Positions 37,848 to 61,550 of a DNA stretch of 64,000 nt are shown piece after piece; the first letter of the stretch is position 1; each line of letters starts with the position of its first letter. The stretch lies in NCBI RefSeq assembly GCF_026004075.1, contig NZ_BPIK01000002.1, forward strand, positions 558,001 through 622,000, in the 5' to 3' direction. The stretch comes from Meiothermus sp. Lineage in GTDB: Bacteria; Deinococcota; Deinococci; Deinococcales; Thermaceae. The notes under the pieces were generated by a model, which had not been told where the DNA came from, made no database searches, and saw only the letters and a list, made by a program, of their open reading frames with translations. The position numbers were made by a program, and so were the translations under genes.

Positions 37848-37879
37848 AAGATAAGCGACTGCCGTTACCAGACCATTAC
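37848..37879 (-). promoter_or_regulatory. SARP-type direct repeat and -10, hsp20 operon (site 1)
   Basis: On the minus strand GTAAT (37879-37875) and GTAAC (37868-37864) are 11 bp apart; 10 nt later comes TATCTT (37853-37848). It overlaps the stop codon of the baeRF gene and points to hsp20, leaving a leader of about 200 nt. Confidence 0.6.
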
Positions 37880-39012
37880 CAACGGGGGAGTCCGGCCAGA
37901 CCGCCTAATTCCTTGTGCAAGCGCGCCTCGGCAGGCCCCCGTACGAACTCGAGCCGGGTTCCATAGGCAGCGGCTAGCTCGGGCAGCACCAGTTTCAGCT
38001 CGACTTCTTCGGGCTGATCGGCGCCGTGCGCCTGGGCCACAGCAGGGCTGCTGCCCACCCAGCCATCCGGGGCACGATAGACCTTGCCCTGGGGGTTCCA
38101 GGGGGCTACAAGTAGGTAGAGCCTGCCCTGCTGCAGGAGTTCGAGGGTCTGATCCAGCCCGCCCACCCCCCGTTCGACCAGCTCGCCCAGGAGTTTGTTT
38201 TCCTGTTCGCGCTCGAGGGGTTCCAGCACCTCCTGCACCCGCTTCAGCACCTCACCGGCCTGGGCGCTGGGGGTAGGCAGGGAGGGGAGGGTGGCAACGA
38301 CCCGCTCGCGCAGCCGGCGGGGCAGCATTTCTTTGAATACCTCTACCTCGACTTTGGGTCCCATCAGCACCAGCCGCTGGATGTTGCGTTCATTTACGGT
38401 CTGCTCCAAGAGCCCGGCCAGCCGTTTATAGAAGCGGTGTGTCCAGGCCTCGAGCCGGCGCTCGAAGTGGTCGGTGTCGGCCGCCGCCCGATGGATACCG
38501 CCCTGGGTGTAGCGACGGCCCTGGCTGTCCTGGGTGAGCTGTTTCCATTCTTGAGGCCCTACGGCCCGGAAAGCCCCCGGCAGCTCCTCAATCTCGCCCA
38601 GGTACACCTCGAACATGCGCCATTTTTCGCTGTCAATATAGACCACCCCGACCCGCTCATACTCGTCGAGTACGTACAGAATGGGGGTCAGGTAGGGCTC
38701 ACCCCAGCGGGCTTCGGCGCCCTGCACGAGGGGCAGGTCTACCTGCAGGTCGTAGATTTCCATCCAGCCCTCGGCGGCAAAGACCACCCGACTACGGGCC
38801 TGGGGCAGCCTCTGCTCGAGCGCCTCCAGAACTTTTTTGCCGACCTCGGGTGGAGCCTGGGTGGCTTCGATGGCTTCGCGGGCCCGCAGCAGATAGGCCT
38901 TGCCCTGGTTGTCTGGGTTGGCAGGGTTAACATCCAGATACAGCGACAATACCGGTGCAACCCTTGGGGCCACAAACTCGCGGATATAGCGTGTAACTTC
39001 TTGTGTCAGCAT
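37876..39012 (-). CDS. baeRF/VLRF1-like release-factor family protein
   Basis: A 378-residue protein resembling bacterial archaeo-eukaryotic release factor (baeRF, eRF1-like) proteins such as baeRF family 10: an N-terminal half with APVLSLYLDVNPANPDNQGK and ERVGVVYIDSEKWRMFEV, then DTDHFERRLEAWTHRFYKRL and IQRLVLMGPKVEVEVFKEML. Members are thought to bind ribosomes or cleave stalled peptidyl-tRNA but this is not shown here. The ATG at 39012 follows AAGGAGG; the frame is open to 39069. It is downstream of the BTAD gene by 80 nt and has its own direct-repeat site. Confidence 0.72.
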   Translation of the reverse strand: MLTQEVTRYIREFVAPRVAPVLSLYLDVNPANPDNQGKAYLLRAREAIEATQAPPEVGKKVLEALEQRLPQARSRVVFAAEGWMEIYDLQVDLPLVQGAEARWGEPYLTPILYVLDEYERVGVVYIDSEKWRMFEVYLGEIEELPGAFRAVGPQEWKQLTQDSQGRRYTQGGIHRAAADTDHFERRLEAWTHRFYKRLAGLLEQTVNERNIQRLVLMGPKVEVEVFKEMLPRRLRERVVATLPSLPTPSAQAGEVLKRVQEVLEPLEREQENKLLGELVERGVGGLDQTLELLQQGRLYLLVAPWNPQGKVYRAPDGWVGSSPAVAQAHGADQPEEVELKLVLPELAAAYGTRLEFVRGPAEARLHKELGGLAGLPRW

Positions 39013-39063
39013 AACAACCTCCTTGCGCTTGATAAGCAGGTGTGGGCGCTGCTCCCTAACTCG

Positions 39064-39095
39064 ATTCAACGTTTCGCCAATTACCTAGCCATTAC
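39064..39095 (-). promoter_or_regulatory. SARP-type direct repeat and -10, baeRF gene (site 7)
   Basis: On the minus strand GTAAT (39095-39091) is repeated as GTAAT (39084-39080), 11 bp apart; after 10 nt comes TTGAAT. It overlaps the BTAD stop codon and points to the baeRF start at 39012. Confidence 0.55.
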
Positions 39096-39952
39096 AGGCC
39101 TGAGCGATGAAGTTGCAAGGCTGGTGCTGTGGCTAGCTGGTTTACATGGCCGGTCAGGCTCGAGCTACTGGGGTTGTGGTAGGGCAGAAGGAGCTGGTTT
39201 TGCTTGATGCGCTCGGCCAGGGCCTGGGTTTCGGGCATGGGCGTATCGCCTAGTTCTTCGCGCAGAAACTTTGTAAAGCGGCGGTAGTGCTCGATAGCCC
39301 CATAGCTATCGCCCGCAGCGGCCAGACACCACATCAGGCGTTGGTGATAGTTCTCGCCCAGATAGGGGTCTTTTTTGAGCGCTTGCTGGAGATATAAAGC
39401 AGCTTGACGCCAGTCTGCGCGGTCGTAGTAGATGAGGGCGACCTCGAGCAAGGCTTGTATATACGCTGTCCTGTGCTCCTCGCGGGCCTCTGAGACCCAG
39501 TTATTTGCAAAGCCCGGCAGGTAATCGCCTTGGTACAGGGCAATGGCCTTCTGGTAGGCTTCCAGCCGGGCAGTATCGCAGCTTGCGCGCTGGCCCTCAG
39601 CCAGTGCCTGGTAGAAGCTGTACAGATCGGAGCTTCGCAAAATCGTTTCGCTCAAGCGGTAGCGTCCATGGTCTTCTTGGACGGCTGCGGGGTTCTGCAG
39701 GGCGGTGCGAACCCGAAAGAGCGTTACCCGGAAGCGGTTGTTGGCCACCGGATCGGGGTCGAGGCCCCACAGGGTCTCGAGGATTTCCGCCTTACTCCTG
39801 CCCTCCGGGTACGAGAGCAGGTAAAAGAAGAGTTCTTCGGCGGTATGGGCGTGCCAGATAGCAGGACGGCCTGCGACCAAAACCTCCACCTGGCCCAAGG
39901 TGCGTACCTGGGTAGGCGGAGCCTGTTCTGAACGGTACGACAACCTTTTCAT
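39092..39952 (-). CDS. SARP-type transcriptional regulator with BTAD domain
   Basis: A 286-residue DNA-binding protein. Residues about 17-95 form an OmpR-like winged helix as in Streptomyces antibiotic regulatory proteins (RTLGQVEVLVAGRPA at the start, then SKAEILETLWGLDPDPVANN and FRVTLFRVRTAL). Residues about 105-250 are a BTAD helical repeat (LYQGDYLPGFANNWVSEARE, EHRTAYIQALLEVALIYYDR). There is no ATPase domain, so it is a small SARP. No ribosome binding site; an AT-rich tract precedes the ATG. It is divergent from a universal stress protein gene and surrounded by GTAAY direct repeats, so it is the best candidate to bind them. Confidence 0.85.
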   Translation of the reverse strand: MKRLSYRSEQAPPTQVRTLGQVEVLVAGRPAIWHAHTAEELFFYLLSYPEGRSKAEILETLWGLDPDPVANNRFRVTLFRVRTALQNPAAVQEDHGRYRLSETILRSSDLYSFYQALAEGQRASCDTARLEAYQKAIALYQGDYLPGFANNWVSEAREEHRTAYIQALLEVALIYYDRADWRQAALYLQQALKKDPYLGENYHQRLMWCLAAAGDSYGAIEHYRRFTKFLREELGDTPMPETQALAERIKQNQLLLPYHNPSSSSLTGHVNQLATAPALQLHRSGL

Positions 39953-39958
39953 AATTTA

Positions 39959-39980
39959 ATTTTTGTTACAAACCCATTAC
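39959..39980 (-). promoter_or_regulatory. SARP-type direct repeat before the BTAD gene (site 3)
   Basis: On the minus strand GTAAT (39980-39976) and GTAAC (39969-39965) are 11 bp apart. The start codon follows only 12 nt after the second word, so here a -10 at the usual 10-nt distance would overlap the ATG. The site must overlap the core promoter, which would fit autorepression rather than activation. Confidence 0.5.
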
Positions 39981-40024: not shown

Positions 40025-40056
40025 GTAACAGGCTGGTAATGCCCTGGATTCATCCT
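40025..40056 (+). promoter_or_regulatory. SARP-type direct repeat and -10, usp gene (site 2)
   Basis: GTAAC (40025-40029) and GTAAT (40036-40040) are 11 bp apart; 10 nt later comes CATCCT (40051-40056). It points to the universal stress protein gene at 40078. Confidence 0.6.
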
Positions 40057-40077
40057 GGGCCCAAGTAGGAGGTGTTT

Positions 40078-40512
40078 GTGTTGCGCCACATTCTGGTTCC
40101 GGTAGGGCTGGGGCCGGGTAGCCTGGCGGCTGTCCAGTATGCGCTTGGCCTTTCTCGCTGGCTGGGCTGTAAGGTAACGCTTTTGCACGTACTCGAGCAC
40201 CCCAACCCTTCGATCGGTGAGGCCCTGACCAAGATGGCCCAAGGGGCGCGCCATCCCCCTACAGTGCTGCTGGTTGAAGCCCACAGCCAGAGCATTGGGG
40301 CGGTGGTAGCCCAAACCGCCCAACAAACCCGTGCCGACCTGATTGTGATAGGCCGCCGCGATACTGCGCAGAAAGCTCCGGAAGAGCTGGGATTGGTGGC
40401 TCGGAGCATACTGGCCAACGCCAAAGTACCCGTTCAGGTAGTGCCCAGTGTCAAAGTGGTGCAAAGTAAACCCTGGATTCAGCGCTTTACAGATGAGGTG
40501 CTCGAGATTTGA
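40078..40512 (+). CDS. Universal stress protein, single domain
   Basis: A 144-residue UspA-fold protein beginning LRHILVPVGLGPGSLAAVQY, with the nucleotide-binding type region ADLIVIGRRDTAQKAP and the C-terminal strand VPVQVVPSV. The glycine-rich ATP loop (GxxG-9x-GS) is incomplete, so nucleotide binding is uncertain. GTG at 40078 chosen since AGGAGG lies 5 nt before it; an upstream GTG overlaps that site. Confidence 0.85.
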   Translation: MLRHILVPVGLGPGSLAAVQYALGLSRWLGCKVTLLHVLEHPNPSIGEALTKMAQGARHPPTVLLVEAHSQSIGAVVAQTAQQTRADLIVIGRRDTAQKAPEELGLVARSILANAKVPVQVVPSVKVVQSKPWIQRFTDEVLEI

Positions 40513-41603: not shown

Positions 41604-41628
41604 TATGAAATCCTTTTGATTCATTCCC

Positions 41629-42938: not shown

Positions 42939-44987
42939 ATGAAACTTTCGTATCCCCCTGCCCCCACCGCAAAGGTGGTCGAGGAGCTGCACGGGGTGCA
43001 GATTCCCGACCCCTACCGCCCCCTCGAGGATCCCCAGGCCCCCGAGACCCGGGCCTGGATCGAGGCCCAGAACCGCCTCACCTTTGGCTACCTCGAGCAG
43101 ATTCCCTTGCGGGAGACCCTCCGGCGGCGGCTCGAGGAACTCTGGAACTACCCCCGCGTGCTCAGTTTCTTTAAGCGTGGGGGCCGCTACTTTAGCCTGC
43201 GCAACGACGGCTTGCAGAACCAGAACGTGCTGTATGTGCAGGAACACCTGGAGGCGGCCCCCCGGGTCCTGCTCGACCCCAACACCCTCTCCGAGGACGG
43301 TACGGTGGCCCTGAGCAACTATGCCGTCAGCCGGGATGGGCGCTACCTGGCCTACGCCCTGAGCAAAAGCGGCTCGGACTGGCTCACCTGGCGGGTGCGC
43401 GAGGTGGAAACGGCCCAGGATCTGCCCGACGAGATCCGCTGGAGCAAGTTTAGCAGCGCGGCCTGGCTGCCCGATGGCAGCGGGTTCTTCTACAGCCGCT
43501 ACGACGAACCCGCCGAAGGCACCGACTACACCGGGGCCAACTACTTCCAGAAGGTCTATCTGCACCGCTTGGGCACCCCCCAGCAGCAGGACGTGCTGGT
43601 CTACGAGCGGCCCGACCAGAAGGAGTGGGGTTTTCAGGCCTTCGTGACCCACGACGGGCGCTACGAGTGCCTGCACGTGTGGCGGGGCACCCACCGCGAG
43701 AACCTGTTTTTCTACCGGCCCCATGGCTCGGAGGAGCCCTTTGTTGAGCTGGTGGGCGAGTTTGTGGCCTCGTTCGAGTTCATCCGCAACCAGGGCTCCC
43801 GCTTCTACTTCAAAACCAACCTGGAGGCCCCCCGGGGCCGGGTGGTGGTGGTGGATGTGGCCCGAGGGGGGCTGGAAACCCTGGAGACCCTGGTGCCCGA
43901 GGGCGAGGACACCCTGAGCTTTGCGGAGCCCGCCGGGGACGGGCTGGTGCTGGGCTACCTGCACCACGCCAGCCACCGGCTGGAGCTGGTGGATCTCGAG
44001 GGGCGCCCCCGGGGCCGCCTGCCCCTACCCACGCTGGGTATGGTGCCGCTGGTGGCGGGCGAGGAAGACGACCCCGAACTCTTCTACGGCTTCACCTCTT
44101 TTTTGTACCCCCTCACCCTCTACCACCACCACCTGACCACCGGCCAGACCCGGCCCCTGTTCACACCGCCCCTGCAGTTCGACCCCAGCCTTTACGAGAC
44201 CCACCAGGTGTTTGTGCCCAGCCGGGATGGTACGCGCGTACCCCTGTTTTTGGTGCACAAAAAAGGGCTTCAGCTCGACGGGCAGAACCCCACCTTGCTG
44301 TATGGCTACGGGGGCTTCAACATCCCCATGACCCCCGCCTTCAACCCAGGGCGGCTGGTCTGGCTCGAGCAGGGCGGGGTGTTTGCCCAGGCCTGCCTGC
44401 GCGGGGGCGGCGAGTACGGCGAGGACTGGTACCGGGCCGGCACTTTGGAGCGTAAGCAGAACGTCTTCGACGACTTTATCGCCTGCGCCGAGTGGCTCAT
44501 CGCCCAGGGCTACACAAAACCCCAGCGGCTGGCTATTCAGGGGGGCTCCAACGGGGGGCTGCTGGTGGGGGCCGCCCTCACCCAGCGCCCGGAGCTGTTT
44601 GGGGTGGCGCTGCCGGCGGTGGGGGTGCTGGATATGCTGCGCTTCCACAAGTTCACCATCGGCTGGGCCTGGGTCTCGGATTACGGCTCGCCCGACAACC
44701 CCGAGCACTTCCAGTACCTGCGGGCCTACTCGCCCCTGCACAACCTAAAGCCCGGCACTCACTACCCGGCCACCCTGATCACCACCGCCGACCACGACGA
44801 CCGGGTGGTGCCCGCGCACTCCTTCAAGTTCGCGGCAGCCCTGCAGGCCGCCCAGGGAGGCCCGGCCCCCATCCTTATTCGCATCCAGACCAAGGCCGGG
44901 CACGGATTGGGCAAGCCCACCCGCATGCTGATCGAAGAACAGGCCGATATCTACGCCTTTACCCTGCACCAGATGGGCCTGGCCTAG
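42939..44987 (+). CDS. Prolyl oligopeptidase, family S9A
   Basis: A 682-residue serine peptidase that cleaves short peptides after proline in the cytoplasm. An N-terminal segment (YPPAPTAKVVEELHG, DPYRPLEDP) and beta-propeller (about 70-400) are followed by the alpha/beta-hydrolase domain. Catalytic triad: Ser in GGSNGGLLVGA (about 536), Asp in TADHDDRVVP (about 619), His in KAGHGLGKP (about 653). ATG at 42939 chosen: TATATT lies 7 nt upstream (leaderless) and the protein then has family length. Its end overlaps the convergent gene by 29 nt. Confidence 0.93.
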   Translation: MKLSYPPAPTAKVVEELHGVQIPDPYRPLEDPQAPETRAWIEAQNRLTFGYLEQIPLRETLRRRLEELWNYPRVLSFFKRGGRYFSLRNDGLQNQNVLYVQEHLEAAPRVLLDPNTLSEDGTVALSNYAVSRDGRYLAYALSKSGSDWLTWRVREVETAQDLPDEIRWSKFSSAAWLPDGSGFFYSRYDEPAEGTDYTGANYFQKVYLHRLGTPQQQDVLVYERPDQKEWGFQAFVTHDGRYECLHVWRGTHRENLFFYRPHGSEEPFVELVGEFVASFEFIRNQGSRFYFKTNLEAPRGRVVVVDVARGGLETLETLVPEGEDTLSFAEPAGDGLVLGYLHHASHRLELVDLEGRPRGRLPLPTLGMVPLVAGEEDDPELFYGFTSFLYPLTLYHHHLTTGQTRPLFTPPLQFDPSLYETHQVFVPSRDGTRVPLFLVHKKGLQLDGQNPTLLYGYGGFNIPMTPAFNPGRLVWLEQGGVFAQACLRGGGEYGEDWYRAGTLERKQNVFDDFIACAEWLIAQGYTKPQRLAIQGGSNGGLLVGAALTQRPELFGVALPAVGVLDMLRFHKFTIGWAWVSDYGSPDNPEHFQYLRAYSPLHNLKPGTHYPATLITTADHDDRVVPAHSFKFAAALQAAQGGPAPILIRIQTKAGHGLGKPTRMLIEEQADIYAFTLHQMGLA

Positions 44988-45630
44988 CCGAAGCGGCCTG
45001 CAGCAGGGCCAGCACCTCTTCGTCCGAGGTCTGGGGGAAATGTTCGTACCACAGGCCGACCGCTTGAAAGAAGGCTGGGGTTTCCAGGCAGACCACCTCG
45101 TCTACCAGCGCCTGGATTTCCGCCACCGTATCGGGCGGGGCCACCGGCACGGCCACCACCAGCCGGCCGGGGTGGTGTTGTCGGGCTGCGGCGATGGCGG
45201 CCTTCATGGTGGCCCCGGTGGCCAGCCCATCGTCCACCAGCAGAACGGTTTTGCCCTTCAGGTCGGGGAAAGGCCGGTTACCGCGGTACAGCCGCTCACG
45301 GCGCTGTAGCTCGGTCCACTGCTGTTGCTCAACGGCGGCCAGGGTGTCGGCCGAAACCTGCAAACTGTCCACGATCTCCTGGTTGAGCACCCGCCCCCCG
45401 CCCGAGGCGATGGCCCCCAGGGCCAGCTCCTCGTGGCCGGGGGTGCCCAGCTTGCGCACCACCCAGACATCCAGGGGTGCGCCGAGCCGTCGGGCCACCT
45501 GAAAGGCCACCGGCACCCCCCCTCGAGGTAAACCAAACACCAGCAGGTTGGGCTGCCGGTCGTAGCCCAGCGCCACCAGCCGCTCGGCCAGCAGTGCACC
45601 GGCCTGGTTACGGTCCTTGAAGGGTTTCAT
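44959..45630 (-). CDS. Phosphoribosyltransferase family protein (COG1926 type)
   Basis: A 223-residue type I PRTase fold. PRPP-binding motif VLLVDDGLATGATM near residue 127; N-terminal FKDRNQAGALLAERL and LVFGLPRGGVPVAFQVAR are the signature of COG1926 proteins, often found fused to or beside dienelactone-hydrolase-like proteins. Substrate unknown. AAGGAGG precedes the ATG. A direct-repeat site for the putative SARP (site 4) is 50 nt upstream. Confidence 0.87.
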   Translation of the reverse strand: MKPFKDRNQAGALLAERLVALGYDRQPNLLVFGLPRGGVPVAFQVARRLGAPLDVWVVRKLGTPGHEELALGAIASGGGRVLNQEIVDSLQVSADTLAAVEQQQWTELQRRERLYRGNRPFPDLKGKTVLLVDDGLATGATMKAAIAAARQHHPGRLVVAVPVAPPDTVAEIQALVDEVVCLETPAFFQAVGLWYEHFPQTSDEEVLALLQAASARPGPSGAG

Positions 45631-45662: not shown

Positions 45663-45694
45663 AACCTTACACCCGGCCATTACCAGAGGGTTAC
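45663..45694 (-). promoter_or_regulatory. SARP-type direct repeat and -10, phosphoribosyltransferase gene (site 4)
   Basis: On the minus strand GTAAC (45694-45690) and GTAAT (45683-45679) are 11 bp apart. A -10-like TAAGGT begins 9 nt later (AAGGTT at 10 nt). It points to the gene starting at 45630. Confidence 0.55.
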
Positions 45695-50868: not shown

Positions 50869-50900
50869 GTAACGCCCTGGTAATTGCGCTGGCTCATTCT
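50869..50900 (+). promoter_or_regulatory. SARP-type direct repeat and -10, hydrolase-lonC operon (site 5)
   Basis: GTAAC (50869-50873) and GTAAT (50880-50884) are 11 bp apart; CATTCT (50895-50900) follows after 10 nt. It would drive the six-gene operon 50935-60196 with a leader of about 28 nt. Confidence 0.62.
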
Positions 50901-50934
50901 TGAGGAAGACGCGGAGACCCTAACGAGGCCGACC

Positions 50935-51624: not shown

Positions 51625-54052
51625 ACAAAGGAGCCTCGAGGCCAACCTGCTACCGGTAGACGCGCTGCGCAACACCTGCGATCCCCGACGCTTTGCCTTT
51701 CGCACCACCACTGAACTGGAGCCCCTGCAGGCCTTCCCCGGCCAGGAGCGGGCCATCCAGGCGGTGCAGTTTGGACTGGCCATCCGCCACGAGGGCTACA
51801 ACCTGTTTGCCCTGGGGCCCATGGGGGTGGGCAAACTCAGTCTGGTGCGCCACTTTACCCAGGCCCAGGCCCAGCAAGAGCCCCCCGCCCAGGACTGGGT
51901 CTACGTGCATAATTTCCTCGAGCCCCACAAGCCCCAGGCCCTGCGGCTTCCCGCCGGGCGGGGTACCCAGCTCAAAGCGAGCATGGATCGCCTGGTAGAG
52001 GAATTGCGGGTAGCCATCCCGGCGGCTTTCGAAAGCGAAGACTACCGCACCCGGCGGCAGATTATCGAAGAGGAGCTCAAGCAAAAACAGCAAGCCAGCT
52101 TCGATGCCCTCCAGGCCGAGGCCAACCAGCAGGGCATCGCCATCATTCGCACCCCTATGGGCATGGGGCTGGCCCCGGTGCGCGACCGCGAAATCATCAC
52201 CCCCGAGGAGTTCGAGAAGCTGCCCGAGGAGGAGCAAAGGCGCATCCAGGCCGCCATGGAGACCCTGCACCAGAAGCTCGAGGCCATCCTGCAGCAAGCC
52301 CCGCAGTGGGAGAGCGAGCGGCGGGCCAAAATCCGCGAACTCAACCGCGAGGTGACCCGCCATGCCATCGCCCATCTGCTGGGCGGGGTGCGGGCCTCCT
52401 ACCTCGACCTGCCCGAGGTGCTGGGGTATCTGGAAGTGGTCGAGCAAGACCTGATCGAGAACGCCGGGCAGTTCCTGGCGAACCCCAGCGACTCGGAGAA
52501 CCCCCTCGAGGCCGCCCTGGGCAAGATGCTCGCCGACAGCCGCAGCTTCGACCGCTACCGGGTGAACCTGCTGGTGGACAACGCCGGCAGCCAGGGGGCC
52601 CCGGTGGTGGAGGAGGACTACCCCTCGCTGGCCAACCTGCTGGGGCGCATCGAGTACCGCGCCCAGTTCGGCAACCTGGTCACCGACTTTACCCTGATTC
52701 GTCCGGGGGCCCTGCACCGCGCCAACGGGGGCTATCTGATTCTGGATGCCCGGCGGGTGTTGTTGCAGCCGTATGCCTGGGAGGAGCTCAAGCGGGCCCT
52801 GCGGGCCAAAGAAATCCAGATTCGCTCGGTGAGCGATGTGCTGGGCCTGACCAGCACCGTTACCTTGCAACCGACCCCCATTCCCCTGCAGGTCAAGGTG
52901 ATTCTGGTGGGGGATCGGCTGCTGTATTACCTGCTTTCGGCCTACGACCCCGACTTCCTCGAGCTGTTCAAGGTGGCCGCCGACTTCGAGGACGCCCAGG
53001 ATCGCACCCCCCAGGGGGAGGAGGCCTATGCGCGACTGATTGCTTCGCTGGCCCAGCGCGAGCAGTTGCGGCCCCTGGAAAGAGAGGCGGTGGCGCGGGT
53101 GGTCGAGCACGGTTCACGCCTGGCTTCCGATGCCCACAAGCTCTCGACCGCGCTCGAGGCCCTCCTCGACCTGCTGCGCGAGGCCGACCACTGGGCCGCC
53201 CAGGCCGGACGCCCGGTCATTGCGGCCCAGGATGTGCAGCAAGCCATAGACCAGCAGGTCTACCGGGCCAGCCGCCTCAAGGAGCGCCTGCAGGAGTCGG
53301 TGCGGCGCGGCATCCTGCTGGTGGACACCCGCGGGGCCAGGGTGGGGCAGATTAACGGGCTGAGCGTGCTTAACCTGGGGGGTTATAGCTTTGGGCACCC
53401 CACCCGCATCACCGCACGGGTGCGGCTGGGCAAGGGCGAGGTGGTGGATATCGAGCGCGAGGTGGCCTTGGGTGGCCCCCTGCACTCCAAGGGGGTGCTG
53501 ATACTGGCCGGGTTTTTGGGTGAGCGCTATGCCCGCGAGCGGCCCTTCTCGCTCTCGGCCAGCCTGGTCTTCGAACAGTCGTACAGTGGGGTGGAGGGCG
53601 ACAGCGCCTCCATGGCCGAGCTATGCGCGATTCTGTCAGCCCTGGCCCAGGTGCCCATCCGCCAGGGGATTGCCATTACCGGCTCGGTCAACCAGCACGG
53701 CCAGGCCCAGCCCATCGGGGGGGTCAACGAGAAAATCGAGGGCTTCTTCGAGGTTTGCCGCGAGGCGGGCCTGACCGGTGAGCAAGGGGTGATTATCCCC
53801 AGGGCCAACGTCCAGCACCTGATGCTCAACCCCGGGGTGGTGGCGGCCGTGGCGCAGGGGCAGTTCAAAGTCTGGGCGGTGGATACGGTAGATGCAGCCC
53901 TGGAAATTCTGACCGGCCTCGAGGCCGGGGAACGGGGGAAAGACGGGCGCTTCCCCGAGGGCAGCCTGAATGCCCGGGTAGAGGCGCAACTGATGGCCTT
54001 TGCCGAGCAGATACGGGCTTTTGCTGCACCCACGATGGGAGGGAGCACATGA
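51617..54052 (+). CDS. lonC: LonC-type protease
   Basis: An 811-residue Lon-like protease. The C-terminal proteolytic domain carries the Ser-Lys dyad: Ser663 in EGDSASMAELC and Lys706 in GGVNEKIEGFF. The N-terminal AAA region keeps GPMGVGKLSLV near residue 67, where the Ser/Thr that should follow the Walker Lys is Leu, and a long helical insert (about 130-250). LonC proteins, described from Meiothermus taiwanensis, degrade unfolded proteins without ATP; the altered Walker A fits. AGGAGG precedes the ATG. Confidence 0.88.
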   Translation: MPEQRSLEANLLPVDALRNTCDPRRFAFRTTTELEPLQAFPGQERAIQAVQFGLAIRHEGYNLFALGPMGVGKLSLVRHFTQAQAQQEPPAQDWVYVHNFLEPHKPQALRLPAGRGTQLKASMDRLVEELRVAIPAAFESEDYRTRRQIIEEELKQKQQASFDALQAEANQQGIAIIRTPMGMGLAPVRDREIITPEEFEKLPEEEQRRIQAAMETLHQKLEAILQQAPQWESERRAKIRELNREVTRHAIAHLLGGVRASYLDLPEVLGYLEVVEQDLIENAGQFLANPSDSENPLEAALGKMLADSRSFDRYRVNLLVDNAGSQGAPVVEEDYPSLANLLGRIEYRAQFGNLVTDFTLIRPGALHRANGGYLILDARRVLLQPYAWEELKRALRAKEIQIRSVSDVLGLTSTVTLQPTPIPLQVKVILVGDRLLYYLLSAYDPDFLELFKVAADFEDAQDRTPQGEEAYARLIASLAQREQLRPLEREAVARVVEHGSRLASDAHKLSTALEALLDLLREADHWAAQAGRPVIAAQDVQQAIDQQVYRASRLKERLQESVRRGILLVDTRGARVGQINGLSVLNLGGYSFGHPTRITARVRLGKGEVVDIEREVALGGPLHSKGVLILAGFLGERYARERPFSLSASLVFEQSYSGVEGDSASMAELCAILSALAQVPIRQGIAITGSVNQHGQAQPIGGVNEKIEGFFEVCREAGLTGEQGVIIPRANVQHLMLNPGVVAAVAQGQFKVWAVDTVDAALEILTGLEAGERGKDGRFPEGSLNARVEAQLMAFAEQIRAFAAPTMGGST

Positions 54053-54855
54053 ACCGGATTCGCCGGGTCATCCTGGCCCTGGATGTGGCGGCCCGTGACG
54101 CCCAGAGCATCGCAGCGGCGGTGGAACTGGCCGCCCGGCTGGGGGCCGAGGTGCAGGGGCTGTTCCTGGAAGACCCCCGCCTGCTGCGCTGGGCCCGCCT
54201 GCCGGTGGCCCGCCAGGTAAGCCCCTGGGGCGGCGGGGTAGACCCGGCGCGGCTGGAAGCCCAGCTCCAGGCCCTCGCGGCCCAGGCCCAGGCCGATCTC
54301 GAGCAGGCCGCCCGGCGGCTGGGGGTGGCCTGGCAGGCCCAGGTGTTGCGGGGGGAGCTCGAGCGGGCCCTGAACGAGTGGGCAGCCCAGGAGGATTTGT
54401 GGGTGATTGGTACGGCGGGCCGGGTGATGGGCCTGGCTGTACCGACCCCCGCCGCGCTGCGGCTGGTGCTGCCCCAGGGGGCGCGCTGGGTCTTGTTGCA
54501 GCCGCGGGGGGCGCCGTTTCGGCATCCGATGGTGGTACTGCACCCCCAGGCCCACAACCCCGAAGCCCTGCTGGAAGCAGCCTGGGCCTTCATGGAAAAC
54601 CCCTCCCAACCCCTGACGGTGGTGGTGCTGGGTGAAAACAGCCTGGCCTCCACACTGCAGGCCTGGCAGGTGCGGCGGGGGGCCCTGGTTCAGCCCGTGC
54701 ACCTGCGGGAGGTTGGCCTGGAACAACTGCTACAGATCTTTACCCGCACCGGCTGCGATGGGCTGGTGGTGGGGGCCAGCCTGCCCCTGCTGGCCGGGGA
54801 GGGGCTGGAACGCCTGCTGGCCCGCCTGCCGGCGCCGCTGCTGGTGGTGCGATGA
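54049..54855 (+). CDS. Universal stress protein-like, two tandem domains
   Basis: A 268-residue protein: IRRVILALDVAARDAQSIAA starts the first Usp-like half, and QEDLWVIGTAGRVMGLAVP its third region; the second half (about 150-268) ends with CDGLVVGASLPLLAGEG and APLLVVR, as in Usp C termini. Nucleotide-binding loops are degenerate. It overlaps lonC and polX by 4 nt each (ATGA), indicating a single transcript. Confidence 0.75.
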   Translation: MNRIRRVILALDVAARDAQSIAAAVELAARLGAEVQGLFLEDPRLLRWARLPVARQVSPWGGGVDPARLEAQLQALAAQAQADLEQAARRLGVAWQAQVLRGELERALNEWAAQEDLWVIGTAGRVMGLAVPTPAALRLVLPQGARWVLLQPRGAPFRHPMVVLHPQAHNPEALLEAAWAFMENPSQPLTVVVLGENSLASTLQAWQVRRGALVQPVHLREVGLEQLLQIFTRTGCDGLVVGASLPLLAGEGLERLLARLPAPLLVVR

Positions 54856-56579
54856 AAAACGCCGAGATTGCCCAACTGTTTCAGGAGATGGCCGAGATGC
54901 TGGCCTTCCTGGGCGAGAACCCTTTCCGGGTGCGGGCCTACACCCAGGCTGCCCGCACCCTGGCCGACCTCGAGACCCCCATCGAGACCATTGCCGCCCA
55001 GGGAGAAGAAGCCCTGCAGGCCCTTCCCTCCATCGGCCCCGACCTGGCCGCCAAGATTCAGGAGTACCTGCGTACGGGCACCCTTCAGGCCCATAGCAAG
55101 CTGGCCCAGCAGGTGCCTGCGGGGGTACTGGAGGTGCTGCGGGTGCCGGGGGTGGGGCCCAAAACCGCCCGGCTCCTGTGGGAGCGGCTGGGGGTAGACT
55201 CGCTAGAAAAACTTCAGGCCGCGCTGGCCTCCAAGCAGGTGCTGGGTCTGCCCGGCTTCGGCGAGAAAAAGCGCCAGCGTTTGCTGGAAAACCTGGCCTT
55301 GGCCGAGACCGCCACCCAGCGAAGACCCCTGGGGGCGGTGCTTGGACAGGCTCGAGCCCTGCTCGAGCAGGTGCGCGCCCAGCCGGGGGTGCTGCAAGCC
55401 GAGATATGCGGCTCATTCCGCCGCTACCGCGAGACGGTGGGCGACCTGGACTTCCTGATTGCCACCCTGACTCCAGCCCAGGTGCTCGAGGCCCTGGTGC
55501 GGCTGCCGGGCATTGTCGATGTGGAAGCAGTGGGCGAGAACCGGGCCACGGTCTTTTTGCAGGGGGGCCTGCAGGTGGACTTCAAGACCGTACCCCCTGC
55601 GGCGTGGGGCAGCGGCCTGCAGTACCTGACCGGCTCCAAAGCCCACAGCATCAAGCTGCGCACCCTGGCCCAGAAGCAGGGCCTCAAGCTCAATGAGTAT
55701 GGGGTCTGGCGGGGAGAGACGCGCCTGGCAGGTGAGGACGAGGCCGGGGTCTACCGAGCTTTGGGCCTGCCCTGGATTCCGCCTCCCCTGCGGGAGGACA
55801 ATGGCGAAATTGAAGCCGCCCAGGCCGGACAGCTACCCCGGCTGGTGCAGCTCGAGGAGGTTCGGGGCGACCTTCAGGTGCATTCGCGCTGGTCGGATGG
55901 CAAAACCACCCTGCTCGAGCTGGCCCAGGCCGCCCAGAAGCTGGGCTATGCCTACCTGGCCGTAACCGACCATTCCCAGAGCCTCAAGGTGGCCCACGGG
56001 GTGCCGCTGGAGAAGGTGCAGGCCCGCCTGAGGGAAATTCGCAAGGTAAACGAAAAAACCGGCGGCAAGCCCTACCTGCTGGCCGGGGCCGAGGTGGAGG
56101 TGGCCGCCGATGGCTCCCTGGACTACCCGGAGCCGGTGTTGCGGGAGCTCGAGGTGGTACTGGTGGCGGTTCACTCCCACTTCAACCTGAGCCGTGCCCA
56201 GCAGACCCGGCGCCTCCTGCGGGCGCTGGAGCACCCCTGTGTGCACATCCTGGCCCACCCCACCGCTCGGATGCTGGGGGTACGCAAGGGCCTGGAGGCC
56301 GACTGGGAGAAGATTTTTCACCGGGCCAAAGCCCTGGGAAAGGCCCTCGAGATTGACGGCTACTACGACCGCATGGACCTGCCCGACACCCTGGCCCGGC
56401 AGGCCGGGGGGATGGGCGTGCTTTTTGCCCTCTCCACCGATGCCCACCAGCTCGACCACATGCGCTTTATGGAGCTGGCCGTGGGCACCGCCCAGCGGGC
56501 CTGGCTGGGGCCGGCCCAGGTTCTCAACACCCGCCCGCTGGCGGCCCTCCTGGACTGGCTTCGGGAGGTGCGGGGGTAA
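54852..56579 (+). CDS. polX: DNA polymerase/3'-5' exonuclease PolX
   Basis: A 575-residue repair polymerase. Residues 1-170 hold the helix-hairpin-helix 8-kDa and fingers regions (LPSIGPDLAAKIQEYL, VPGVGPKTARLLWERLG); about 175-320 the nucleotidyltransferase palm with ICGSFRRYRETVGDLDFLIA (metal-binding Asp pair in GDLDF); about 340-575 a PHP exonuclease/phosphoesterase domain with VTDHSQSLKVAHG, VAVHSHFNL and LAHPTARMLG. The first PHP position is Gln (DLQVHS) where His is common. Acts in gap-filling base-excision repair. Confidence 0.93.
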   Translation: MKNAEIAQLFQEMAEMLAFLGENPFRVRAYTQAARTLADLETPIETIAAQGEEALQALPSIGPDLAAKIQEYLRTGTLQAHSKLAQQVPAGVLEVLRVPGVGPKTARLLWERLGVDSLEKLQAALASKQVLGLPGFGEKKRQRLLENLALAETATQRRPLGAVLGQARALLEQVRAQPGVLQAEICGSFRRYRETVGDLDFLIATLTPAQVLEALVRLPGIVDVEAVGENRATVFLQGGLQVDFKTVPPAAWGSGLQYLTGSKAHSIKLRTLAQKQGLKLNEYGVWRGETRLAGEDEAGVYRALGLPWIPPPLREDNGEIEAAQAGQLPRLVQLEEVRGDLQVHSRWSDGKTTLLELAQAAQKLGYAYLAVTDHSQSLKVAHGVPLEKVQARLREIRKVNEKTGGKPYLLAGAEVEVAADGSLDYPEPVLRELEVVLVAVHSHFNLSRAQQTRRLLRALEHPCVHILAHPTARMLGVRKGLEADWEKIFHRAKALGKALEIDGYYDRMDLPDTLARQAGGMGVLFALSTDAHQLDHMRFMELAVGTAQRAWLGPAQVLNTRPLAALLDWLREVRG

Positions 56580-56612
56580 TGCCGCTTGCTGGGCAGGGTT
56601 AGGAGGAAGCGC

Positions 56613-57593
56613 ATGGTTTCCCTTTGCCTGACCGGTGACCTGATGCTGGGCCGCCTGGTGAACGAGGCCCTGCTGCGCTATGGGCCAGCCTACCCCTTCG
56701 GAAACGTGCTGGACGAGCTGCACCAAGCCGACCTGCGGGTGGTGAACCTCGAGTGCGTGATCTCCGATAAGGGCGAGCCCTTTAGCCGCTGGGAGAAGGT
56801 CTTCCACTTCCGTGCCCACCCCCGCGCCATCGAGACCCTCAAACGGGCCCGCATCAACTGCGTGGTGCTGGCCAACAACCATGTGCTCGACTACGAAGAA
56901 GAAGCCTTCTTGCAGATGCTGGAGCTGCTCGAGCAGGCCCAAATTCCCTATGTGGGTGCGGGCAGGAACCTCGAGGAGGCCCGCCGCCCAGCCATTTTGC
57001 AGGCAGCGAACCTGAAGGTGGGTGTGGTGGCCTTCACCGACAACGAACCCGGCTGGCAAGCAGGCCAAAACACGCCGGGCACCAACTACCTGCCGGTTGT
57101 CCCCGCCTCGGTGGCGGTGTTGCGCGAGCAGATACATCAGGCCCGGTTGCGGGGCGCCGGGCTGGTGATCGTATCGGCGCACTGGGGGCCCAATATGCGC
57201 CTGCGCCCTCCACCCCCGTTTTGCGCCTTTGCCAGGGCGGTGGTGGAGGCCGGGGCCGACGTCTTTCACGGCCACAGCGCCCACGTCTTTCAAGGGGTTG
57301 AGATTTACCACGGAAAGCCCATCCTCTACGACTGCGGCGAGTTGGTGGACGACTACGCCGTAGACCCGGTTTTGCGCAACGACTGGGGCCTGCTGTACCG
57401 GCTTTACATCCAAAACCAGCACGTCCAAAAAATGGAACTGCTGCCCTTGCTCATTGATAACTGCCAGGTCAACCTGGCCACCGGCCCCGACCGGGCGGCC
57501 ATCCTCGAGCGGCAGCAGATGCTATCGGCGGAACTGAACAGCACCGTCTCGCGCGAAGGTGACCGGCTGTGGATTTCTTGCGGAAGGAGTTAA
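56613..57593 (+). CDS. CapA-family metallophosphatase
   Basis: A 326-residue protein of the PGA_cap (CapA) family, calcineurin-like fold: VSLCLTGDLMLGRLVNEALL at the N terminus, LRVVNLECVISDKGEPF near 45, VVLANNHVLDYEEEAF near 95, IVSAHWGPNMRL near 195 and FHGHSAHVFQGVEIYHGKP near 230. In Bacillus CapA helps anchor poly-gamma-glutamate; outside capsule operons the role is unclear. ATG at 56613 has AGGAGG 6 nt upstream; an earlier TTG is unlikely. Confidence 0.87.
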   Translation: MVSLCLTGDLMLGRLVNEALLRYGPAYPFGNVLDELHQADLRVVNLECVISDKGEPFSRWEKVFHFRAHPRAIETLKRARINCVVLANNHVLDYEEEAFLQMLELLEQAQIPYVGAGRNLEEARRPAILQAANLKVGVVAFTDNEPGWQAGQNTPGTNYLPVVPASVAVLREQIHQARLRGAGLVIVSAHWGPNMRLRPPPPFCAFARAVVEAGADVFHGHSAHVFQGVEIYHGKPILYDCGELVDDYAVDPVLRNDWGLLYRLYIQNQHVQKMELLPLLIDNCQVNLATGPDRAAILERQQMLSAELNSTVSREGDRLWISCGRS

Positions 57594-57595
57594 CC

Positions 57596-60196
57596 ATGCG
57601 CCAGCGCCCACGCCCATCTGTGCCCCCCACCCCCTACTGGGCAGAAGAGCTGGAGGGGCTCTGGACCCGGCTGGAAAGCCAGCCATCCGGGCTCAGCCCT
57701 ACCGAGGCGCTCCGCCGCTTGCAACAGTGGGGGGCCAACACCCTCCAAACCCGTCGGCGTTCTACCGCCCTGTCGGTTTTTCTGAACCAGTTCAAGAGCC
57801 CGCTGGTGCTGATTCTGGTCTTTGCGGCCTCTATCTCAGCGCTGGTGCAGGAGTGGGTGGATGCCTGGATTGTGCTGCTGATCGTGCTGGGCAGCGCTCT
57901 GATCTCTTTCGTGCAGGAGTACAGCGCCAGCCGGGCGGTGCAGCGCCTGCTGGCCAGGGTTCAGGTCAGGGTTTCGGTGTTGCGCGGAGGCCAGATTCAG
58001 CGCATCCCTGCCGAAGAAGTGGTGCCCGGCGACGTGGTGCTGCTCTCGGCGGGCACCCTGATCCCTGCCGATGGCCGGGTACTCGAGGCCAAGGACTTTT
58101 TCGTCAGCCAGTCAGCCCTTACCGGCGAGACCTTTCCAGTGGAGAAACGCCCTGGGGTGGTGTTGCCCGAAGCCAGCCTGGGCGAACGCAACAACTGTGT
58201 TTTCATGGGAACCAACGTGCGCAGCGGTACTGCGCGCATGCTGGTGGTCGAGACCGGGGTTCGTACTGCTTTCGGGCAGATTGCCGACCGGCTGGCGCTG
58301 CGCCCCCCCGAGACCGAATTCGAGCGGGGCATACGGCAGTTTGGTTTCCTGCTGACCCAGGTGATGCTCCTGATGGTGCTTCTGGTGTTCGCGGTCAACG
58401 TGTTTGGCGAGAAACCGCCCGTTGACTCCCTGCTTTTCGCCATCGCACTGGCGGTGGGCCTGACCCCCGAACTGCTGCCGGCCATCATCGGGGTCAACCT
58501 GGCCAAGGGGGCCCAGCGCATGGCCCGCCAAGGTGTGATTGTGCGCCGGCTGAGCGCCATCGAGAACCTAGGCAGCATGGATGTGCTCTGTACCGACAAA
58601 ACCGGCACCCTGACCAAAGGGGTGGTACGGCTGGACGCGGCGCTGGATGCTTGGGGTCAGTCCTCGCCCCAGACCCTGCGCTATGCGTTCTGGAACGCCT
58701 ACTTCCAGACCGGCCTGACCAACCCGCTGGATCAGGCCGTGATAGAGGCAGCCGCACAGGCGGGTTTGGATGCCGCAGGTGTGCAAAAGATTGACGAGAT
58801 ACCCTACGATTTTAGCCGCAAGCGCCTGAGCGTGGTGGTAGAGCAGGCTGGGGAGCGATACCTGGTAACCAAAGGAGCTTTGGAGCAGTTGCTCGAGGTC
58901 TCTAGCCAGCTCGAGGAGAACGGCCGGGTTCGGCCTCTGGAAGATTCCGACCAAGAGCACCTCGAAGCCCTCTACAGCCGCTACAGCGAGCAAGGCTACC
59001 GGGTTTTGGGATTGGCCTATAAGCCGGCTGCCGCTCAGCAAGCGGTCTTTGGGCACAATGACGAACAGGGCCTTGTTTTTGTGGGCTTTTTGCTTTTCTT
59101 CGACCCACCCAAACCCGGCGTGCAGGACACCCTGGCCCGCCTGGCCCACCTGGGCATAGACCTCAAGATCATCACCGGAGACAACCGCAAGGTGGCCGTC
59201 CACCTGGCTACACAGATTGGGATGCAGGTGCAGGGCCTGCTTACCGGACGCGAACTTGCCACCCTGCCCGACGAAGCCCTGTGGCACCAGGCCGAGCGCT
59301 GCAACCTGTTTGTGGAGGTAGACCCCAGCCAGAAAGAACGCCTGATTCTGGCCCTGCAAAAGACAGGACACGTGGTGGGTTATATGGGCGATGGCATCAA
59401 CGATGCCCCGGCCCTTCACGCGGCCGATGTGGGCATCTCGGTAGACCAGGCGGTAGACGTAGCCAAGGAGGCTGCCGACCTGGTATTGCTCGAGCCCAAC
59501 CTAGATGTTCTGCGGGAAGGCATCGAGGAGGGGCGAAAAACTTTTGCCAACACCCTCAAATACATCTTCACGACCACCAGCGCCAACTTCGGCAATATGT
59601 TCAGTATGGCCGGGGCCTCGGCTTTTCTCCCTTTCCTGCCTCTTTTGGCCAAGCAAATTCTGCTCAACAACTTTCTATCCGATCTCCCGGCAGTGGGCCT
59701 CGCCACCGATAATGTAGACCGGGAATGGCTGGAAAAGCCCCACCGCCTGGATATGCGCTTCATACGCAATTTTATGGTGGTGTTTGGTCTGATCAGTTCG
59801 ATATTTGACTACCTGACGTTCGGCCTGCTGCTGTGGGTTTTTCGTGCCACCCCCGAGGTGTTCCGCACCGGCTGGTTCATGGAGTCACTGCTCACTGAGC
59901 TTCTGGTCGCGCTGGTGATACGCACCCGCCGCCCCTTCTTTCAGAGCCAGCCGGGCCGACTTTTGCTCGGGTCTACGCTGCTGCTGACCGTGCTGGCCGT
60001 GCTATTGCCCTATCTCCCCTTCAGTGCTGCTTTTGGCTTTGTGCCCCTATCCCCGGCGTTGCTGCTGGGGTTATTGGGCCTGACCCTGCTGTATGTTTTT
60101 TTGGTGGAGCTGGCTAAGCACGTTTTCTATCGGCGTTTCTCGAGCCAGCTCGGCCCTCTCAAAAACACCGGTCAAGGTGAAGAGGGCACAAGATAA
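57596..60196 (+). CDS. P-type ATPase, MgtA type
   Basis: An 866-residue cation pump. Actuator motif LTGETFPVEKRPG near 175; phosphorylation motif VLCTDKTGTLTKG with Asp near 333; GYMGDGINDAPALHAADVGI near 595. The N-terminal cation-ATPase domain and helices around SALVQEWVDAWIVLLIVLGS and the C-terminal six-helix segment match magnesium-type (P3B) pumps. Mg2+ uptake is inferred from family similarity. ATG at 57596 with AAGGAG upstream. Last gene of the six-gene stress operon. Confidence 0.87.
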   Translation: MRQRPRPSVPPTPYWAEELEGLWTRLESQPSGLSPTEALRRLQQWGANTLQTRRRSTALSVFLNQFKSPLVLILVFAASISALVQEWVDAWIVLLIVLGSALISFVQEYSASRAVQRLLARVQVRVSVLRGGQIQRIPAEEVVPGDVVLLSAGTLIPADGRVLEAKDFFVSQSALTGETFPVEKRPGVVLPEASLGERNNCVFMGTNVRSGTARMLVVETGVRTAFGQIADRLALRPPETEFERGIRQFGFLLTQVMLLMVLLVFAVNVFGEKPPVDSLLFAIALAVGLTPELLPAIIGVNLAKGAQRMARQGVIVRRLSAIENLGSMDVLCTDKTGTLTKGVVRLDAALDAWGQSSPQTLRYAFWNAYFQTGLTNPLDQAVIEAAAQAGLDAAGVQKIDEIPYDFSRKRLSVVVEQAGERYLVTKGALEQLLEVSSQLEENGRVRPLEDSDQEHLEALYSRYSEQGYRVLGLAYKPAAAQQAVFGHNDEQGLVFVGFLLFFDPPKPGVQDTLARLAHLGIDLKIITGDNRKVAVHLATQIGMQVQGLLTGRELATLPDEALWHQAERCNLFVEVDPSQKERLILALQKTGHVVGYMGDGINDAPALHAADVGISVDQAVDVAKEAADLVLLEPNLDVLREGIEEGRKTFANTLKYIFTTTSANFGNMFSMAGASAFLPFLPLLAKQILLNNFLSDLPAVGLATDNVDREWLEKPHRLDMRFIRNFMVVFGLISSIFDYLTFGLLLWVFRATPEVFRTGWFMESLLTELLVALVIRTRRPFFQSQPGRLLLGSTLLLTVLAVLLPYLPFSAAFGFVPLSPALLLGLLGLTLLYVFLVELAKHVFYRRFSSQLGPLKNTGQGEEGTR

Positions 60197-60381: not shown

Positions 60382-60390
60382 TGTACGGTT

Positions 60391-60621
60391 CTATCGCGAA
60401 AGGGTTTCCACCAACAGCCGCTCCAACACCCGGCGTAGGCGGGGATAGCGGGCCAGCAGCCAGCCTACCAACAAGGCCAGGCCCAGTGTCTCGTTGGGAT
60501 GCCGCTCGACCCAGTCCAGGCTTTCCTGGTCAAAACGCTGGGCAGCCTGGCGCAGCCGGGCCCTGGCCGCCTGGCGATCCGGGGAATTATCCTTGGGCGG
60601 GGGGCGGTTGGCGTCGCTCAT
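60391..60621 (-). CDS. Small protein resembling the C-terminal part of YqjD/YqjK
   Basis: A 76-residue protein: a charged helical N-terminal part (RQAARARLRQAAQRFDQESL) and one hydrophobic helix (LGLALLVGWLLARYP) ending in basic residues. Third gene of a minus-strand operon with a DUF883-like and a holin-X-like gene, a set like E. coli yqjD-yqjE-yqjK. AGGAG stands 5 nt before the ATG at 60621. Confidence 0.6.
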   Translation of the reverse strand: MSDANRPPPKDNSPDRQAARARLRQAAQRFDQESLDWVERHPNETLGLALLVGWLLARYPRLRRVLERLLVETLSR

Positions 60622-60712
60622 ACCCACTCCTGCTACCTCGAGCAGCCTTCAGAAAAACCTAGCCGCACCCGGCAGTCAAACTTCCTCTACCGCTAGCATC
60701 GGCAACGTCAAA

Positions 60713-60988
60713 CTAGCGCATCATCCTTCGAGCTTGCCACCACAAGCCCCCCGCCAGCAGAAGCGACAGCAAACCAACCAGCAAGGCCGAGAGGGGAGCA
60801 CTCAGCAAGCTGCTGAGCCACAAATAAGCAGCCCATAACAAAAGGAGCAGGCCGCCCAGTACCAGCAGGACGGCCACAACCAAAAGAAGAAGCGCGCCCG
60901 CCACGCGCAGAAAGCCCATCTTCAGCGAGCGCGCTTCGGCCTCCAGTACATCGAAGAGGCCCAACAGCAACTCAACTATTCCCGCCAC
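60713..60988 (-). CDS. Holin-X/YqjE-like membrane protein
   Basis: A roughly 91-residue protein with two hydrophobic helices (LLLLVVAVLLVLGGLLLLLW and LSALLVGLLSLLLAGGLWW) after an amphipathic N terminus, as in the phage holin-X/YqjE family. GTG at 60988 is chosen because it overlaps the upstream gene stop closely; a TTG at 60973 is possible and no ribosome binding site decides it. Confidence 0.65.
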   Translation of the reverse strand: MAGIVELLLGLFDVLEAEARSLKMGFLRVAGALLLLVVAVLLVLGGLLLLLWAAYLWLSSLLSAPLSALLVGLLSLLLAGGLWWQARRMMR

Positions 60989-61293
60989 ACCCGGCGCCCC
61001 ATCAGCGCCCGCCGTTCGGTGAACCAACCTGCCACCAAGCCCACCCCAAAAGCAGCCAGCACGCTCAGGAAGGGACGTTCTTCAATCCGGTGTTCCACAT
61101 TGTGGATGATCTTGTCCCCCCGCACACGGGCTGTTTCGAAGGCTTCAAACATCCCTTCGCGCAGGTGTTGGGTCTCGTCCTTCAGGTTGACCCGCATGGC
61201 TTGGGCCAGCTCACTCAAATCCTTGCGGAGCAGGGTCAGATCGTTACGAATATCCTGTAACTCTCTGGTCACATTGGGTTCGACAATCGCCAT
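60976..61293 (-). CDS. DUF883/ElaB-YqjD-like protein
   Basis: A 105-residue protein: helical coiled-coil-like N-terminal part (NDLTLLRKDLSELAQAMRVN), then one membrane helix with ERPFLSVLAAFGVGLVAGWF, typical of YqjD/ElaB proteins, which anchor to the inner membrane and in E. coli bind ribosomes in stationary phase. AAGGAGG precedes the ATG. First gene of the three-gene operon. Confidence 0.75.
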   Translation of the reverse strand: MAIVEPNVTRELQDIRNDLTLLRKDLSELAQAMRVNLKDETQHLREGMFEAFETARVRGDKIIHNVEHRIEERPFLSVLAAFGVGLVAGWFTERRALMGRRVWRE

Positions 61294-61518
61294 AATCTAC
61301 CTCCTTGATGGGCTTTCTTTACAAACTTAAAGTTACTCCTAACGCAATGGGTCAGGTGTCCCGCAGGCAGGTTCAAGCAGAGTTATGCCTTAGCCTGCCC
61401 TGTTAAGAGCGCTCCAACCCGCAGATACCACAAAAAACGATTGACCCGCGGGTTTGTGCGGAAACGGTACTACACCTCGCCCTCTGAGCTGAGCCCCAGT
61501 TGCACCTCGAGAGAGCTG

Positions 61519-61550
61519 GTAATGTCTCGGTAACACCGCCGGTTCAGCCT
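61519..61550 (+). promoter_or_regulatory. SARP-type direct repeat and -10, flavodoxin-usp cluster (site 6)
   Basis: GTAAT (61519-61523) and GTAAC (61530-61534) are 11 bp apart; CAGCCT (61545-61550) follows after 10 nt. It points to the gene at 61796, about 240 nt downstream. Confidence 0.55.

Follow-up and report, generated by a model that had tools for sequence, protein, structure and literature searches.

The 64-kb stretch of a Meiothermus sp. genome analysed here (assembly GCF_026004075.1, contig NZ_BPIK01000002.1, positions 558,001 to 622,000; hereafter the window, with coordinates counted from its first base) contains seven putative promoters marked by two directly repeated GTAAY words with a period of 11 bp. 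The best explanation of these promoters is very probably a regulon controlled by a small Streptomyces antibiotic regulatory protein (SARP) that is encoded among them and would bind and activate them. A SARP-controlled stress regulon had been suggested by an initial annotation, made from the letters of the window alone. The genome-wide frequency of the motif and its conservation at orthologous promoters were analysed, and both support the suggestion.

The seven GTAAY-N6-GTAAY pairs listed in the initial annotation are all present. On the minus strand, GTAATGGTCTGGTAAC (37864..37879) points toward hsp20-DUF4383 and is followed by the predicted -10 element TATCTT (37848-37853), GTAATGGCTAGGTAAT (39080..39095) points toward baeRF (TTGAAT, 39064-39069), GTAATGGGTTTGTAAC (39965..39980) precedes the SARP gene itself, where it is putatively autoregulatory (hexamer TTATGA, 39949-39954), and GTAACCCTCTGGTAAT (45679..45694) points toward a phosphoribosyltransferase gene (AAGGTT at 45663-45668, or TAAGGT one base earlier). 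On the plus strand, GTAACAGGCTGGTAAT (40025..40040) is divergent from the SARP gene and points toward usp (CATCCT, 40051-40056), GTAACGCCCTGGTAAT (50869..50884) toward a hydrolase-lonC-polX-capA-mgtA run (CATTCT, 50895-50900), and GTAATGTCTCGGTAAC (61519..61534) toward flavodoxin-usp (CAGCCT, 61545-61550). Each site has at least one GTAAT word. As annotated, all seven lie between genes or at gene edges; the sites at 37864-37879 and 39080-39095 overlap the final four bases of the preceding reading frame.

Counting both strands, 0.04 such pairs are expected in the window, so that the chance figure of 0.5 given initially was too generous, and none of 100 dinucleotide shuffles reaches seven pairs. 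When periods from 5 to 59 are scanned, seven GTAAY pairs are found at period 11 and at most two at any other. Likewise, among exact 4-mers repeated at distances of 8-24, GTAA/TTAC at 11 is the strongest outlier that is not at a multiple of three. The pairs are confined to 36-64 kb (seven, compared to none in 1-36 kb, in agreement with the initial annotation). The whole genome (3.25 Mb, two contigs) contains 21 sites and three matches of the reversed pattern; seven of these 21 fall inside one 64-kb stretch (p = 1e-7, for a window whose choice was not blind).

The spacing to the -10 element is fixed. A hexamer with A or T at position 2 and T at position 6 had been reported 10 nt after the second word in five window sites and 9 nt after it in a sixth. 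The fixed position holds, and the count is six of seven at 10 nt, with site 45679 fitting at both 10 and 9 nt; the sole exception is TTATGA at the SARP's own site. In a set of 156 sites from 20 genomes, the start of a hexamer with A2 and T6 (NANNNT) lies precisely 10 nt behind the second word in 115 cases; at 49 other offsets, the count averages 7.3 and does not exceed 29. This set comprises all 21 sites of the present genome and, for 19 other genomes (given as G numbers, with loci as L numbers), only sites in regions picked by eye (for example, G002 12/18, G003 20/27, G006 13/26, G008 10/18, G013 11/19, G016 3/14, G017 15/24, G018 2/21, G022 9/33, G040 12/70, G045 8/22), the choice being made on the 16-mer and not on the bases downstream of it. 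Since many of the 156 sites were chosen by eye, the unselected figures weigh more: in this genome, the hexamer is found at 10 nt in 12 of 21 sites and in two at each neighbouring offset, and in the ten genomes with a close SARP orthologue (this one included) 115 of 208 sites have it, versus 4 of 41 reversed-pattern matches. The motif is thus far above its reversed control genome-wide and is trailed by a -10 element at fixed spacing.

The 130 core sites yield the consensus GTAAYGSNYYGGTAAY, ten bases, YANNNT, and the putative operator is better written GTAAYGSNYYGGTAAY-N10-YANNNT than as a bare GTAAY pair. The core required GG before TAAY (or the type of the SARP's own site), so that G11, the G before the second GTAAY, is largely conserved by construction. 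A start codon with a ribosome binding site follows within 130 nt in 95 of the 115 sites with a -10 element, compared to 33 when the sequence is read backwards. PMC10936776 describes SARP targets as direct repeats of 11-bp period whose 3' repeat lies 8 bp from the -10 element. Ten nt from the pentamer equal 8 nt after the heptamer, so the geometry at the 115 sites equals the SARP rule, as the initial annotation had proposed, and 11-bp-period direct repeats at target promoters are characteristic of the SARP family.

The proposed activator (39092..39952, minus strand; labelled P0001) combines an OmpR-type winged helix with a BTAD domain (PF03704, 1.8e-17; 64.5 bits, cut-off 22.1). It has 286 aa and no FHA, ATPase or sensor domain. 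It is the single BTAD protein in the window, as had been noted, and one of seven in the genome, of which only this one belongs to its subfamily. In a structure search with its AlphaFold2 model (pLDDT 85.8; residues 1-11 under 50), AfsR and EmbR chains are the only matches at E of 0.001 or less. There are six of them, with E 6.8e-11 to 2.8e-09 and TM 0.67-0.70 of the query, and the fold match to AfsR has 22-23% identity over 246-251 columns. With the full sequence profile, AfsR is found at 2.2e-9, with a lower rank than some designed TPR proteins whose match is to the helical part; the N-terminal profile alone finds the OmpR-type SaeR at 1.5e-4 and AfsR only at 0.44. Invariant residues W62, R75, R80 and R82 of the subfamily are spaced like the AfsR DNA-contact residues W74, R87, R92 and R94, a correspondence set by spacing and compared by eye. 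By profile and predicted fold, the protein is a small SARP. A domain scan of 20 window proteins, made without a cluster-finding program, shows no biosynthetic cluster; location in an antibiotic cluster is usual, not required, for SARPs. The neighbours of the gene encode Usp, baeRF, Hsp20, transporter and transposase proteins. The transposase (41629-42701, minus strand) lies inside the stress island in two open frames with DDE_3 and HTH parts.

The annotated ATG of the SARP falls within its own putative -10 element, and the fourth codon reads TTG in this genome but ATG in most of the orthologues inspected (annotated start to codon 4, 39941-39952). Together, this suggests that the true start may be codon 4 of a leaderless transcript. 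Leaderless genes with an adjacent -10 element are common in this phylum according to PMC12340547. Named relatives of the SARP are found in Meiothermus hypogaeus, M. granaticius, M. rufus, Calidithermus chliarophilus and C. roseus, and further ones in several Meiothermus, Thermaceae and Deinococcales metagenome-assembled genomes (MAGs). In M. rufus (G009; L046 / L195), the SARP reads in two overlapping frames and may be broken or affected by a sequencing error; a few target sites remain.

The number of sites was compared to the presence of this subfamily, alone among the seven BTAD proteins of the genome, in 111 genomes of the order; one of the other six may also be considered as the regulator. 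The subfamily threshold of about 195 bits or more was set after the scores were seen. The 19 genomes with the subfamily, including the split G009 and the partial G037, contain 128 strict composite sites (4 for the reversed pattern), and 16 of the 19 have at least three. The 92 genomes counted as lacking it, among them G044, G052 and G055 with weaker matches (93-133 bits), contain 20 (7 reversed), and none has three or more (Fisher 1.2e-16 for at least three sites, not corrected for relatedness). The positives fall in three families. Within the genus, 2-13 sites are found in the 13 genomes with the subfamily and 0-1 in the five without. Among the distant genomes, G040 and G045 have sites clustered within a few kb of the SARP gene, and G041 has one site just before it. 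Dense runs of SARP-class sites occur in these distant Deinococcales MAGs at G040:C8:72096-83754 (L189, seven in 12 kb), G040:C9 (L190) and G045:C61 (L191); the genes behind them encode PEPCK, lactate/malate dehydrogenase, Usp (with a DsbA-like gene behind), class V aminotransferase and others. A separate observation concerns the subfamily-less G025, G027, G036 and G070 (Thermaceae genus g5), which have one strict site each, GTAACGYNYGGGTAAC or close to it, with a TAAYCT-like -10 element.

Sites are kept upstream of orthologous genes in SARP-bearing Meiothermus. baeRF has a match in 16 of 18 genus genomes, and a site lies upstream of it in all ten with a close SARP orthologue (this one included), with exact words in nine, one word mismatch in G016, and a TTGAAT-like -10 element. 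In the SARP-less G007, G011 and G014, whose baeRF is 69% identical, no site is found within two mismatches in the 4-kb loci; the two remaining SARP-less genus genomes have no baeRF. More diverged baeRF genes have no site in G009 (53%) and G001 (42%) and a site in G017 (50%). Clustering places a site at the SARP's own promoter in 12 genomes, that of G008 having one mismatch in its words, and the divergent SARP/usp site pair is seen in ten. The expectation that sites are lost together with the BTAD gene is borne out for baeRF of the three SARP-less species and not for G010 and G012, which retain SARP-class sites.

Promoters of similar layout are also found where the SARP is absent. Five SARP-less Meiothermus genomes (G007, G010, G011, G012, G014) contain 20 bare sites, 13 of them with a -10 element, so the idea that all bare GTAAY-N6-GTAAY matches form the regulon was rejected. 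By reading, five of these 13 are class B (they resemble GTAACARGNTTGTAAC and precede genes for KASIII-like proteins and alpha/beta hydrolases), five are class C (the gene behind them is either one of about 150 aa or that of a response regulator), two are SARP-class (before phosphoribosyltransferase genes), and one is a conserved match with no reading frame starting behind it. The class B arrangement, GTAACARGNTTGTAAC-like sites followed by GGTANACT-like -10 elements, was seen at KASIII-like and alpha/beta hydrolase genes in L006, L007, L225, L226, L227, L229, L233 and L236; its presence also without the SARP suggests another regulator with the same spacing. A GTAAC-N6-GTAAC class with the same -10 spacing precedes the gene of about 150 aa (a weak DUF2680 match in L239), also in SARP-less Meiothermus (L239:770-1467 and 1501-2030 in G010; L014, L213, L215, L219, L234, L235). 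In G010, this site is paired with a similar one of divergent orientation that immediately precedes an OmpR-type response regulator gene, and the class perhaps belongs to a separate envelope-stress two-component system. As far as the sequences tell, matches elsewhere with GTAAC words only are other promoter classes of the same geometry, one of them beside the OmpR-type response regulator, and the SARP-specific features are site number, GTAAT words and the GG spacer.

According to the proposed mechanism, the stand-alone small SARP would occupy both GTAAY half-sites in a head-to-tail arrangement along one DNA face. The repeat, at about -38 to -23, would replace the -35 hexamer, with the YANNNT -10 element downstream, and the SARP would activate transcription as AfsR does, via an AfsR-like contact to sigma. 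It would govern a stress and dormancy gene island through the seven window promoters; beyond the window, its targets would include no less than an archease-rtcB pair and the gene of a P-type ATPase. Its own gene would be controlled via the promoter divergent from usp. As the SARP lacks a sensor domain, one would guess most simply that its abundance exerts the control, with positive feedback.

A different assignment would have an OmpR/PhoB-type response regulator bind the GTAAY repeats, with the SARP gene as a mere target. Regulators of the OmpR type also use 11-bp direct repeats. In G010, which has no SARP, an OmpR-type response regulator gene is directly preceded by a GTAACCCGCCCGTAAC site that keeps the -10 spacing and is divergent from a second site, and promoters with GTAAC-N6-GTAAC are found in SARP-less genomes. 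However, these sites are GTAAC/GTAAC, whereas every window site has a GTAAT word, the number of SARP-class sites tracks the SARP subfamily over the 111 genomes, and distant families have sites at the SARP gene. No response regulator is found among the annotated targets, which are only part of all targets. This assignment is considered improbable. That the SARP binds and represses, or is dual, keeping stress genes off, appears similarly improbable: the site overlaps the -35 region, and the SARP's own -10 element overlaps the start codon, a layout possible for autorepression, but a repeat that stands in for the -35 hexamer at constant spacing to the -10 element is expected of an activator docking on sigma, and SARPs are described as activators in PMC10936776. 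An origin of the repeats by chance or composition has next to no probability. Some single genome-wide matches do fall in reading frames (L005, L010, L013); the shuffles, the fixed -10 element, the outlier at period 11 and the conservation led to its rejection.

Several observations weigh against control by the SARP. The co-occurrence is confounded by relatedness because 13 of the 19 positives are one genus. The strict counts include a few matches that are not SARP promoters, such as the conserved GTAATTTCCCGGTAAC match in or over an open reading frame, without which G018 drops to two sites and the total to 15 of 19, and three SARP-bearing genomes have few strict sites (G041 none, G037 one, G001 two). 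With a -10 element at 13 of the 20 bare sites in SARP-less Meiothermus, the bare motif plus spacing is not SARP-specific, and other promoters combine this geometry with GTAAC words. The -10 elements deviate in places: the SARP's own, which contains the annotated ATG, is irregular and, like that of the archease site of this genome, has no T at position 6, and the baeRF sites have T, not A, at position 2. In G016, no site is found before the SARP within two mismatches, and in G009 the SARP is split over two frames, yet sites are kept. Finally, the SARP-less G010 (99% complete) keeps a SARP-class site before the phosphoribosyltransferase gene, and the SARP-less G012 keeps such sites before the phosphoribosyltransferase and archease genes; the completeness of G012 is 84%, and its two loci share 98% identity with those of this genome.

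The SARP regulon in the window would include the following genes. On the minus strand, the targets encode an Hsp20 small heat-shock protein (37192..37647; PF00011, 1.9e-22), with a DUF4383 membrane protein as presumed second gene (36826..37182; PF14325, 9e-07), a baeRF protein resembling the Balon/MSMEG_1130 ribosome hibernation factors (37876..39069; PF18854, 1.2e-34; NCBIfam MSMEG_1130 ribosome-hibernation family at 1.2e-18, below the equivalog cut-off), and a phosphoribosyltransferase (44959..45630; PF00156, 2.3e-21), labelled COG1926 in the initial annotation. On the plus strand, a universal stress protein (40072..40512; PF00582, 5.1e-16) is encoded behind the divergent site. The alpha/beta hydrolase target (50884..51624; PF00561, 2e-06) probably starts at about 50935, behind the promoter, and is followed on the same strand by a LonC-type protease (51617..54052; PF13654, 3.3e-55, and PF20437, 2.2e-15) and a PolX-type DNA polymerase (54852..56579; PF14716, PF14791, PF02811), both presumed to be in the same operon, a CapA / PGA_cap protein (56586..57593; PF09587, 3.6e-74) and a Mg2+-type P-type ATPase, MgtA (57569..60196; TIGR01524, 840.7 bits, above cut-off). 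The 268-aa product of 54049..54855 (plus strand), located between LonC and PolX, has no Pfam match at E 0.001; it had been labelled usp initially. The last site is followed on the plus strand by a flavodoxin gene, a presumed target starting 228 nt after the site (61763..62302; PF12724, 4.4e-19), and a double-domain universal stress protein gene (62593..63576; PF00582, 2.1e-62, 2 stretches).

Outside the window, this genome has sites at an archease-RtcB pair (C1:186550; archease assigned by cluster and by Pfam of the G002 relative) and at a P-type ATPase gene (C2:51955). Target proteins of the regions fetched from 20 genomes were grouped by single linkage, with only representatives scanned for domains: Usp-like clusters are found in 15 genomes, baeRF in 11, phosphoribosyltransferase in 8, P-type ATPase and PEP synthase in 7 each, archease in 6 and Hsp20 in 5. 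Further targets come from single genomes: PfkB (two), a CBS-domain protease of the M50 type, a CBS pair, PEPCK and, as the second gene behind a site, a formate/nitrite transporter. In G022, a hemerythrin-domain frame lies directly behind the phosphoribosyltransferase target (L182, 11071-12243, minus strand); given this position, hemerythrin was dropped as a direct target.

SARPs have mostly been known for switching on antibiotic clusters in actinomycetes. SARP-type promoters and small SARPs as such are known; the GTAAY operator, the occurrence in another phylum and the putative stress and dormancy regulon set the present case apart, and an earlier description of this regulon was not found among the best 8-12 matches listed per search of the open-access literature. 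AfsR and the small SARPs of Streptomyces (ActII-4, RedD, DnrI) likewise combine an OmpR-type winged helix with BTAD and use 11-bp-period direct repeats that overlap the -35 region 8 bp from a poor -10 element. In contrast to these, the present system belongs to Deinococcota, uses the GTAAY word and has stress and dormancy genes at many promoters rather than an antibiotic cluster. AfsR also has ATPase and sensor domains that the Meiothermus SARP lacks, and EmbR of Mycobacterium shares the SARP core fold and has an extra FHA domain. Within the same phylum, the CheY-SARP response regulator Deide_19260 of Deinococcus deserti, which rises after radiation according to PMC3564903, has a receiver domain and was likened to P0001 by description only. 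One SARP subfamily outside actinomycetes seems to be a wide-ranging activator of stress or dormancy genes. Its precisely defined operator makes the regulon readable from sequence and would offer a handle on how a heat-loving lineage enters the resting state, a Balon-type ribosome hibernation factor included.

In gene content, the targets resemble the DosR regulon of mycobacteria. Judged by domain, about nine kinds of target correspond, with families pooled over genomes: Usp, Hsp20, the Rv2629/Balon-type factor, phosphoribosyltransferase, P-type cation ATPase, archease next to RtcB, PfkB, M50 protease with CBS domains, and a CBS pair. For this comparison, Rv2630 is taken to be archease, Rip3 presumably carries CBS domains and Rv2626c is assumed to be the CBS pair. 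A published DosR gene table lists Usp proteins, HspX, the metalloprotease Rip3, Rv1997, Rv2630, RtcB (Rv2631), the phosphoribosyltransferase Rv0571c and PfkB (Rv2029c) (PMC5309233), and Rv1997 is CtpF in PMC8044303. The comparison is at domain level with pooled families, so the likeness counts as a lead, by which the "stress" regulon of the initial annotation may be sharpened to a DosR-like dormancy gene set; we infer a role in dormancy or at low oxygen. The two systems differ in their control: DosR works with sensor kinases and its box is a palindrome, whereas a SARP and SARP-type direct repeats at promoters are found here. We give about even chances to the wider reading that Thermaceae and some other Deinococcota have a dormancy regulon that is a functional counterpart of the DosR regulon. 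In this reading, it was assembled under a small SARP that regulates itself and is unrelated to DosR, and part of it spread between families as a gene island. If so, the same dormancy tool-kit was placed under different master switches at least twice, and the comparison points to the repeated appearance of a DosR-like gene set under regulators that are not related to each other.

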